From Hyphobacterium sp. CCMP332 (lineage in GTDB: Bacteria > Bacteroidota > Bacteroidia > Cytophagales > CCMP332), in assembly GCA_014323545.1 (NCBI GenBank), contig CP058647.1, positions 1,714,001 to 1,778,000 on the forward strand: a stretch of DNA of 64,000 nt. The letters run 5' to 3'. The position numbers were made by a program, and so were the translations under genes. Positions 13,724 through 18,259 of the stretch are shown one piece after another. A model generated the notes under the pieces. That model was given only the letters and a program-made list of their open reading frames with translations. It was not told the origin of the DNA and searched no databases. Each line of letters opens with the position of its first letter. Positions within the stretch are counted from its first letter, which is position 1.

Positions 13724-14497
13724 ATGGCAGTAAAAATTAGACTGAAAAGAAGAGGCCGTAAAAAATTGGCCATGTTTGATGTAGTAGTCGCCGACTCCCG
13801 CTCTCCAAGGGATGGAAAATTTATCGAAAGAATAGGCACCTACAATCCCAATACCAACCCCGCAACTATAGAACTCAACGAAGACAAAGCATTTGACTGG
13901 GTCATGAAAGGTGCACAACCTACAGATACAGTTAGAGCTATGTTGTCTTATAGGGGTATTCTGTTGAAAAAGCATTTGCAAATCGGTGTGTTAAAAGGCG
14001 CAATTTCTCAGGAAGATGCTGATAAAAAGTTTGATACCTGGTTGAAACAGAAAGAAAAAGCCATTGAGAATAAGAGAACAGGCCTTGCAGAAGCAGAAGA
14101 GAAAATGCGAAAAGACAGAATCGCTGCAGAGAAAAAAGTTAATGAAGCTCGTGCTGAAGCTTTAAGGAAGAAAAAAGAAGAAGCTGTAGAAGCACTTAAA
14201 GAAGAGATTTCTGAAGAGGCGGAAGAAAGTGAATTGTCAGAAGAGGCGGAAGAAGCGGTTGCACAAACTGAAGCCCCCACTGAAGCAGAACAGGAAAAAG
14301 CTGAGGAGAAAGTAAGTGAAGAGGTTAAAGCTGAAGCCCCTGCAGAAGAGGAAAAAGAAGAAACTAAAGCTGAAGCAGCAGTAGAAGAAAAGAAAGAAGA
14401 GACTGAAGCTCCGAAAGAGGAGAAGAAAGAGGAAGTTAAGGCTGAAGCTCCTGCAGAAGAGAAAAAAGAAGAAGCTCAAGAAGATAAAAAGGACTAA
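13724..14497 (+). CDS. rpsP: 30S ribosomal protein bS16 with a long Lys/Glu/Ala-rich C-terminal extension
   Basis: The first about 90 residues are a normal bS16 ([42 protein letters not shown]). The protein then continues to 257 residues, about three times the usual 80-90. The extension is helical up to about residue 155 ([22 protein letters not shown]) and then low-complexity, made of E, K, A and P, including two near copies of [12 protein letters not shown]. Bacteroidota bS16 proteins often carry such tails, but this one is long. It is the first gene of rpsP-rimM-trmD-rplS. The tail is in frame and uses codons like the core, so it looks like real coding sequence. Confidence 0.95.
14321..14472 (+). 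repeat. Imperfect tandem repeat in the rpsP extension
   Basis: Two related units of about 41 bases (14321-14361 and 14432-14472) encode [13 protein letters not shown] and [13 protein letters not shown], with further purine-rich GAAGAAAAG-type repeats in between. Slippage on such sequence is a likely source of length change in the tail. Confidence 0.7.
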
Positions 14498-16186: not shown

Positions 16187-16218
16187 AAACCCCGGCCAAC
16201 ACCGGGGTTTATTTTTTT
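16187..16218. terminator. Rho-independent terminator after rplS
   Basis: A perfect 9-base stem AAACCCCGG (16187-16195) / CCGGGGTTT (16202-16210) with a 6-base loop is followed by ATTTTTTT. The stem overlaps the stop codon of the convergent multicopper oxidase gene and has A residues on the other side, so it may serve both strands. Confidence 0.92.
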
Positions 16219-17399
16219 ACCAGCTTTCTAAGTACTGGCTCTTTTCCATTTTCAAATAGTTTTATAATGTAAATGCCACTTGTCAGGTCTTCAAGATTAA
16301 TAATTTCTTCTCTCGAGACCTCCTTTTTAAGTAGGCGTTTGCCGTTCAGGTCGAAAATTTCAACTGTGCCTCCTCCTATTTCACCCTGATAGTTTAATAC
16401 CTCAGCAAAAGGGTTAGGGTAAAAATAGTTTATCTGCTCTTTTTCAATTTCCAATGGAGATAAACGGTTTACCACTATTGGCACATACTCTTTTCCCCAG
16501 ATCTTATCCTGATACATAGATAAATACTGTATTTCGATACTATCGTTTAGTATTTGAGTGGCTTCGAAAAGAACGCCGTAGCGCTCACCAGGGAAAATCC
16601 TAAGAGTGTCGTTGATTATAACATTAGGCAACGCTCTACCATCAGAAGTAATTTGGGAAGTTGTGATTCCCTGAGGAAATAGGTATTGGTTAATTCCATA
16701 ACCAACGTTCATCAATCTAAGAAGGATTTTTTCTCCTACATAAGCATTGTAAATTGAAGTTGAAGAATCTGCCTTTATGTCCTGTTTCGATTTGCCATTA
16801 ACATGGAAGTAATCCGGTTCATAACTTGTAAAAGCACCGATAGAAGTATAGTCGTCGTGCCAGGATTTATCAACTTCAATATTTAGCCATTCAAAATCGC
16901 GATCATATGTTGGGCCTCCCGGATAAACCTCTTTAATATTATTTGCCAATCTCACTATTACTGCTCCGTACATGCCAAGTTGTAAATGCAATACGGTTCC
17001 TACATGACAGTGATATAAATAATTGCCCGATTGCGTCGCTCTGAAAGAATAGGTCCCTGTTTGGTTCGGTTGTATAAAAAATGAAGTAGATGGAACCCCG
17101 TCATTAGCCTGATCTACGTCCAAGCCGTGTAAATGAATTGTGTGTGCTTCAAAACTTGGATTAGTCATGTTAATAATGACCGAATCGCCCACGTTACAAT
17201 AGATTGTGGGGCCGGGAAGAATTGCTTCTGTTGTGGTAGTATCATTTAGGTCTCTAAAACCCCAAAAATTCAGGGTGTCTCCAGTCCAAAGAAGTGAAAT
17301 GCCGTCCATGCGTGATTCAAAATCATATTGAACGATACTTTGAGTTTGAGCAGCACTGAATACTGTTGTGAAAAGCAATATAGTTAATAGATACCTCAT
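16209..17399 (-). CDS. Multicopper oxidase subunit with type 1 copper site and T9SS sorting domain
   Basis: 396 residues with a signal peptide (MRYLLTILLFTTVFSAAQ). The first cupredoxin domain has HTIHLHG (His86, His89, His91) and YHCHVGTVLHLQLGM (HCH at 130-132, His138, Met143), a full type 1 copper site plus two of the four HxH motifs of a trinuclear cluster. A second cupredoxin domain follows (PGERYGVLFEA). The last about 75 residues (FYPNPFAEVLNYQGE ... KLVKK) are a type A T9SS sorting domain, so it is exported to the surface. It overlaps the preceding gene by 4 bases (ATGA), and that gene carries the two missing HxH motifs. Confidence 0.88.
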   Translation of the reverse strand: MRYLLTILLFTTVFSAAQTQSIVQYDFESRMDGISLLWTGDTLNFWGFRDLNDTTTTEAILPGPTIYCNVGDSVIINMTNPSFEAHTIHLHGLDVDQANDGVPSTSFFIQPNQTGTYSFRATQSGNYLYHCHVGTVLHLQLGMYGAVIVRLANNIKEVYPGGPTYDRDFEWLNIEVDKSWHDDYTSIGAFTSYEPDYFHVNGKSKQDIKADSSTSIYNAYVGEKILLRLMNVGYGINQYLFPQGITTSQITSDGRALPNVIINDTLRIFPGERYGVLFEATQILNDSIEIQYLSMYQDKIWGKEYVPIVVNRLSPLEIEKEQINYFYPNPFAEVLNYQGEIGGGTVEIFDLNGKRLLKKEVSREEIINLEDLTSGIYIIKLFENGKEPVLRKLVKK

Positions 17400-18259
17400 G
17401 GGTCTATATCCATCATCACCATCATGCCATTTGGATAATTCCCTCCGCCTGTAGTAGCTACCAGATTGTGATCGTGAACCGGGTATTTACCTTCCTGGTG
17501 TGGTATTAATAAATAGACCTGATATTCGGCAGATTTTATCGGAATGGAATCTTTCTTTCGTCCTACCAATTCAGGGCTTTTACTTGATTGCAAAATGTCC
17601 ACATGATAACCATGAAAATGAATTGCATGGTACATAAAGCCGGAATTAATTACAAAAATATAAATTGTGTCTCCTACATTGCCTACGACTTTTGCTAAAC
17701 TATCCTGTGAGATTTTTGGATGTGTCTGATCATTTATAGTGAAATAATCAGGATTAAAACTGTCGATATCGACACCTAGCCCATTCCCAATTGCAAGGTT
17801 GAAGTCGCTTTGCAATTCATTGAGATTCCAGATAAAATAATTTGTAGGATCATCCCACACCTTAATGAATGATTTGAGGCCAAGAAGCCGGTGTTTTTCC
17901 TGACTATCAAAAAAAGTAATTATCCTATTTGTGTCAGACTGTATGCTGAGTACCACTGAATCGAATGCTTGAATAATTCCGGTACTTAGAGATAATCCAT
18001 CAATAACAATATTGTGTTGAGCAGTATCCTGGTTCAGAATTGTGAGTTCAAGTGTGTCTTCGGGCAATAATTCTATGAAATCGTTTTTGGGAGAAAAGGT
18101 GTCCGAGCTATTAAATGCCAGAAAAGAGAATGCGTTAAAACCCAAAGGGTGAAAGGAGATTTCACCTCGGTTTATATATAATTTGCTGCTTTTAACTTCG
18201 GCCTCAGCTTTAAATAAAAGCAAGGTAAATACCAATAAATACCAATACCTCTTTGACAT
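17396..18259 (-). CDS. Multicopper oxidase-like partner with HFH and HDH motifs
   Basis: 287 residues with a signal peptide (MSKRYWYLLVFTLLLFKAEA). The first cupredoxin-like half has no recognisable copper ligands. The second half has YHAIHFHGYHV (His211, His214, His216) and YPVHDHNLVATTGGGNYPNGM (His262, His264). The HDH replaces the HCH of a type 1 site, so this protein could supply trinuclear-cluster ligands but not type 1 copper. It overlaps the start of the downstream oxidase gene by 4 bases, implying coupled translation and likely a complex. It has no T9SS domain of its own. Confidence 0.82.
   Translation of the reverse strand: MSKRYWYLLVFTLLLFKAEAEVKSSKLYINRGEISFHPLGFNAFSFLAFNSSDTFSPKNDFIELLPEDTLELTILNQDTAQHNIVIDGLSLSTGIIQAFDSVVLSIQSDTNRIITFFDSQEKHRLLGLKSFIKVWDDPTNYFIWNLNELQSDFNLAIGNGLGVDIDSFNPDYFTINDQTHPKISQDSLAKVVGNVGDTIYIFVINSGFMYHAIHFHGYHVDILQSSKSPELVGRKKDSIPIKSAEYQVYLLIPHQEGKYPVHDHNLVATTGGGNYPNGMMVMMDIDP

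Follow-up and report, generated by a model that had tools for sequence, protein, structure and literature searches.

Can the trinuclear copper site of a multicopper oxidase be divided between the products of two genes? To our knowledge, this site lies in one chain in multicopper oxidases or is common to identical chains. The window, that is, the whole 64,000-nucleotide stretch of Hyphobacterium sp. CCMP332 DNA that was analysed, raises the question through two overlapping genes, A and B, which a preliminary description had read as the two parts of an obligate heteromeric oxidase. The open reading frames, their 4-base overlap and all the residue numbers of that description were borne out by the sequence, and the two frames are not joined in the window. 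The pair is laid out as follows:

17396..18259, reverse strand: gene A, 287 aa, predicted exported two-domain cupredoxin protein with the domain-2 half of a trinuclear copper site; type 1 copper and T9SS tail absent
17396..17399, reverse strand: ATGA overlap of the A stop and the B start; overlaps of 1-8 bases are also found in most homologous pairs
16209..17399, reverse strand: gene B, 396 aa, predicted exported protein of two cupredoxin domains, bearing the domain-1 half of a trinuclear site, a type 1 copper site and a T9SS tail

The 3.33-Mb genome encodes no PF07731/PF07732 proteins other than A and B, and the domain matches of the two differ. The sole Pfam-type match of window A is Cu-oxidase_2, in domain 2; across the A family PF07731 likewise falls in domain 2, with an additional PF07732 or Cupredoxin_1 match in 19 of 24 members. 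Window B matches Cu-oxidase_3 (PF07732) and Cu-oxidase (PF00394), with a T9SS type A sorting domain at its C-terminus. As previously described, A has HFH at 214-216 and HDH at 262-264 without a type 1 Cys, and B contains HLH at 89-91, HCH at 130-132, Cys131, His138 and Met143. To this we add His86 of B and the absence of any ligand from domain 1 of A. Hydrophobic N-terminal signals are present on each protein, consistently with the proposed export of both, and the T9SS sorting domain was confirmed on B alone (TIGR04183/PF18962, residues 327-396); as T9SS cargo, window B scored 48.9 bits against a cut-off of 23 and window A had no match. The individual features are:

18200..18259, reverse strand: predicted signal peptide of A, MSKRYWYLLVFTLLLFKAEA, from N-terminal hydropathy, with a putative cleavage site
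17612..17620, reverse strand: A HFH (His214, His216), trinuclear-site ligands, aligned with HTH 203-205 of 3g5w
17468..17476, reverse strand: A HDH (His262, His264), trinuclear-site ligands, aligned with HDH 251-253 of 3g5w
17142..17144, reverse strand: B His86, the first of the type 1 copper His residues; its counterpart in 3g5w is the initial His of HTIHWHG
17127..17135, reverse strand: B HLH (His89, His91), trinuclear-site ligands, conserved in the 3g5w alignment
17004..17012, reverse strand: B HCH, with His130 and His132 as trinuclear ligands and Cys131 as type 1 ligand, conserved in the 3g5w alignment
16971..16988, reverse strand: B His138 to Met143, the rest of the type 1 copper ligands, conserved in 23 of 24 B proteins
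16554..16826, reverse strand: second cupredoxin domain of B (PF00394, residues 192-282), trinuclear ligands all lost; HxH at the ligand positions in 0 of 24 B proteins
16212..16421, reverse strand: T9SS type A sorting domain of B, residues 327-396 (TIGR04183 E 4.9e-13, PF18962 E 1.6e-10)

The preliminary description had missed the kinship of A and B, which have diverged from each other within a single two-domain family (A against B, hhalign E 3e-16). With profiles of 24 sequences each, A and B independently picked out 3g5w and 2zwn, both type C two-domain oxidases, as their best solved relatives, with alignments spanning both domains (3.2e-18 for A, profile A8; 1.7e-41 for B, profile A7). In these profile alignments, His86, His89, His91, His130, Cys131, His132 and His138 of B correspond to the domain-1 ligands of 3g5w (HTIHWHG, HCHVNVNEH) and His214, His216, His262 and His264 of A to its domain-2 ligands; conversely, domain 1 of A has HNIVIDG in place of the type C HTIHWHG, and domain 2 of B has GINQYLFPQG in place of VHAIHTHGH. 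In type C oxidases it is the N-terminal domain that contains the type 1 site (PMC13151041), the Nitrosomonas europaea enzyme (BCO) is a trimer of such two-domain proteins (PMC3918160), and the active site of two-domain laccases is formed between two monomers (PMC3192119). The B half site and the A half site thus correspond exactly to the two sides of one such interface.

Like type C oxidases, A and B each have two cupredoxin domains per chain, and type 1 copper is confined to the N-terminal domain (the full B set in 23 of 24 pairs, none in A). They depart from that class in the placement of the four HxH motifs, which every intact pair distributes over both chains, two in domain 2 of A and two in domain 1 of B, instead of placing them on one polypeptide, two per domain; a homotrimer of A or of B alone would hold no complete trinuclear site. 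The eight trinuclear His and the type 1 Cys-His-His of multicopper oxidases in general are present in the pair and in neither chain alone. Membership of other copper oxidase families was rejected on family cut-offs, both for CueO/CopA copper-resistance oxidases (window B, NF008205 47.6 bits against 525 and TIGR01480 76.3 against 478.95) and for three-domain laccases. AlphaFold2 monomer models built from shallow four-sequence alignments were of low confidence (pTM 0.59 for A, 0.35 for B), and a Foldseek comparison of the A model with the PDB gave no meaningful match; our structural claims rest on none of these models.

To see whether the division recurs, we collected 24 A-B pairs from Bacteroidota, sampling relatives at the levels of order, family and class, with genomes drawn from the phylum, class and order. 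The two genes were adjacent with A upstream of B in all 24, and most overlapped by 1-8 bases. The eight trinuclear His were kept on the same chains, together with B His86, Cys131, His138 and Met143, in 23 of the 24 pairs, and this invariance held at about 30-50% overall identity; no A protein had domain-1 ligands and no B protein a domain-2 HxH. The division of the motifs is therefore more than chance, since the same eight His recur on the same chains. A fixed set of 395 class genomes contained strong, full-length A matches (E below 1e-60) and full-length B matches in an identical 16 genomes, a co-distribution with a hypergeometric probability of 1e-26 that applies to related and hence non-independent genomes. 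One genome, G550, holds four pairs, none of them split up.

The exceptions behave as natural knock-outs. The only one of the 24 pairs to deviate in its ligands, locus L040 of G550, is broken in both subunits: in A, HDH has become HNQ with loss of His264; in B, HLH has become HLY with loss of His91, and His138 has changed to Asn. Its B, moreover, is alone among the 24 in having no recognisable T9SS tail. Two genomes of the class set, G887 and G153, had a B-type match without A. The G887 match was discarded as a true orphan, being merely a C-terminal fragment. The nearly full-length G153 orphan (L114:3228-4169, G153:C1) provides a natural test of the dependence of B on A, and it has lost the type 1 Cys along with all of the trinuclear His (HTIHLHG to VSLYCKE, YHCH to YYSP). 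In L040 and G153, the copper site was thus not kept where it could not be completed.

Maximum-likelihood analysis of the two-domain region placed A, B and the single-chain type C proteins in three well-supported groups, the deep order among them being unrooted and some branches long; the G153 orphan sits inside the B clade. The A and B subtrees mirrored each other, with a distance correlation of 0.80 and shared groupings of the window with L087, L025 and L026, of L027 with L090, of L089, L091, L092 and L093 together, of L039 with L042, and of L038 with L040. Three distinct groups and mirrored subtrees fit one old duplication, followed by complementary loss and then inheritance as a cassette.

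We therefore consider it very probable that A and B together form a single multicopper oxidase, as subunits that arose by duplication and complementary loss, with a complete site at the A-B contact only. The case for such a heteromer consists of the ligand split, the homology, the pairing and the coupled decay. The earlier proposal of an obligate heteromeric oxidase accordingly gains strong support from adjacency in 24 of 24 pairs, presence in the same 16 of 16 genomes and mirrored trees, and further from ligand loss on both chains of one paralogous pair and loss of the site in an orphan B. A point against it is that any functional coupling of adjacent genes, and not metal-site sharing alone, would give shared distribution and decay.

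In the best of the alternatives, B would be a lone type 1 copper electron-transfer protein and A a separate copper-binding or delivery protein, both expressed from a common operon with no common metal site. The type 1 site of B is indeed complete by itself and each protein has its own signal peptide, but in 23 of 24 pairs B keeps four trinuclear His for which a type 1 carrier has no need and A holds exactly the missing four, L040 shows damage to both half sites at once, and the orphan B is without its site; we regard such a division of labour as improbable. Even less credible is a reading of the two proteins as degenerate, non-catalytic paralogues that serve in structure or adhesion at the cell surface and whose His residues are relics. 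Half of the canonical ligands are missing from each protein, and the L040 pair and the G153 orphan really are dead, but relics would not keep eight His and a type 1 set unchanged through 23 of 24 pairs whose overall identity is about 30-50%. A heteromeric enzyme resembling copper nitrite reductase, with a type 2 centre replacing the trinuclear site, is just as hard to credit: TIGR02376 does match B domain 1 and some A proteins, but all scores are far under the cut-off (52.9 against 296.3 bits for window B, which was rejected as NirK), the two HxH of B include HCH where nitrite reductases have HCA and make eight His with the two HxH of A, and the best relatives of A and B are oxidases.

The split architecture is not confined to Bacteroidota. 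A protein search of plasmids found it in the alphaproteobacterium Indioceanicola profundi, where A (3.7e-29 against the A profile) has HIH and HCH in domain 2 and a domain 1 without ligands, and B, starting 20 bases after A (3.5e-40 against the B profile), has HWH, HCH and the type 1 site in domain 1 and a domain 2 without ligands. This B has neither a T9SS tail nor an N-terminal hydrophobic segment and its A has a Tat-like signal, and the signal-less B may be carried by A.

We also looked for fused homologues, and found a near-fusion in place of an intact single chain. On a plasmid of Arthrobacter sp. FW305-BF8 (L121:2689-5036) the A frame continues via a linker into the start of B, with a frame break inside B; the record annotates two overlapping genes, and the two look like one chain with a frame break. 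Intact A-B fusions probably exist in related actinobacteria. Two candidate fusions were rejected. A single 689-aa A-B frame at L081 results from a change of frame at eight consecutive G, A would be expected to end in the other frame, and the B signal peptide is still present internally. The 1092-aa protein at L080:4797-8075 is an A-type protein with an N-terminal extension that appears by eye to be beta-propeller-like with further repeats and has no Pfam match.

As for homologues that work alone, complete single-chain oxidases do exist (L028, L029), but in a separate type C clade; within the family, the one orphan B is dead with respect to copper, and a possible exception comes from the Paenarthrobacter plasmid pTC1, where an A-type gene with its ligands stands beside a B-type fragment only. 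This search covered the plasmid, and pTC1 is the one observation that fits poorly with obligate pairing. The actinobacterial versions (L120 and L121, on the Paenarthrobacter and Arthrobacter plasmids) adjoin Nramp/mntH manganese transporters, in L121 together with a metal-dependent regulator, and a regulator of the iron-dependent-repressor family lies near one Bacteroidota pair (L038:4522-5226). Such neighbours suggest a metal-oxidase role (Mn or Fe).

The T9SS type A tail was detected at E 0.01 in 23 of 24 B proteins, some near or below the curated cut-off, and in none of 24 A proteins; the source genome has 116 matches to this tail. Carriage of the untagged A to the surface by B through T9SS, the piggyback of the preliminary description, is plausible, and reasonable given that T9SS transports folded proteins (PMC9251779). 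Alternatively, A could remain in the periplasm, leaving B incomplete.

Several neighbouring genes deserve mention. Six loci encode, upstream of A and either adjacent to it or one gene off, a small protein that has a T9SS tail, an invariant W and two Cys spaced as C-x4-C (L084:3941-4711, L094:3960-4655, L085:5484-6158, L086:3958-4692, L088:5357-6073 and L038:3681-4436). A Pfam scan of the scanned members gave nothing informative besides the tail; the protein is a possible third component or copper-handling factor. At L086:869-1849, the gene immediately following the A-B pair encodes a protein of the copper-related MbnP family that matches the T9SS tail weakly. Elsewhere in the window, the head gene of a rimM-trmD-rplS-like order (13724-14497, 257 aa) is presumably rpsP, encoding ribosomal protein S16, with a long, charged, Glu/Ala/Lys-rich C-terminal tail.

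From the ligand split and the coupled decay we infer a physical A-B complex, its loading with copper and its activity, and we propose the following mechanism. The ancestor would have been a homotrimeric type C two-domain oxidase with each trinuclear site between domain 1 of one subunit and domain 2 of its neighbour. After duplication, B would have lost the domain-2 ligands and A the domain-1 ligands and the type 1 site, and a complete trinuclear site would arise from the A-B contact alone. The assembly must differ from the type C trimer, because A and B cannot take turns around a three-membered ring; candidates would be a 1:1 dimer, a 2:1 trimer containing a single site, or a ring of more than three subunits. 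Both subunits would reach the periplasm via their own signal peptides, and T9SS-tailed B would probably take A over the outer membrane as a folded complex. There, a surface substrate would most likely reduce the type 1 copper of B (His86, Cys131, His138, Met143), and electrons would pass via Cys131, flanked by His130 and His132, to a trinuclear site made up of B His89, His91, His130 and His132 and A His214, His216, His262 and His264, in a geometry suggested by homology. At this shared site, O2 would be reduced to water.

If true, the exactly complementary half sites on two genes are a clear natural case of subfunctionalisation by complementary loss in which assembly is forced before activity, and the pair offers a natural test of T9SS carrying an untagged partner. 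Scoring annotation chain by chain misses that A and B belong together. Two-domain laccases have been stated to be absent from Bacteroidetes (PMC3192119), a gap that the A-B pair fills. We think it likely, with somewhat less assurance than for the shared site itself, that the architecture is previously undescribed: an obligate hetero-oligomer, derived by duplication with complementary loss, to which one subunit contributes the type 1 copper plus one half of the trinuclear site and its partner the second half only, found across Bacteroidota families with a related form in Alphaproteobacteria and Actinomycetota, and exported by one subunit carrying the other (T9SS in Bacteroidota, perhaps Tat in Indioceanicola). 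Our literature search on heteromeric or split multicopper oxidases returned fungal heterodimers and Mnx only, with thin coverage of subscription journals, and an earlier description is possible.

Among known systems, MnxEFG of Bacillus is a manganese oxidase, with a multicopper oxidase (MnxG) in a multi-subunit complex with MnxE and MnxF, proteins of about 12 kDa without known homologues (PMC5622069). It resembles the proposed A-B enzyme as a multi-subunit multicopper oxidase and differs in that MnxG is the oxidase and its partners are small. As far as is known, the trinuclear site of MnxEFG is on MnxG alone. Heterodimeric fungal laccases of the POXA3 type likewise show laccase activity in a two-protein complex (PMC3129051). 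In contrast to A and B, one of their subunits is a complete laccase and the partner a small protein. Their copper site is not known to be common to both subunits. Copper nitrite reductases, two-domain trimers with an inter-subunit metal site, a domain-1 type 1 site and a type 2 centre with three His, share with the pair the two-domain chain, the domain-1 type 1 site and the proposed inter-subunit location of the metal site, but A and B score under the family cut-off. The closest likeness is to the type C oxidases (N. europaea BCO, 3g5w; a metagenomic laccase, 2zwn), which have two cupredoxin domains, an N-terminal type 1 site and four HxH motifs that follow in the same order and at similar distances. 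In these homotrimers one chain carries both half sites, whereas each gene product of the pair carries one half site and has lost the other, and the T9SS tail is a feature of the Bacteroidota B. The single-chain type C-like oxidases L028 and L029 also come from Bacteroidota and have the same motifs in both domains, but with eight His on one chain and in a clade of their own; neither A nor B is such a protein.
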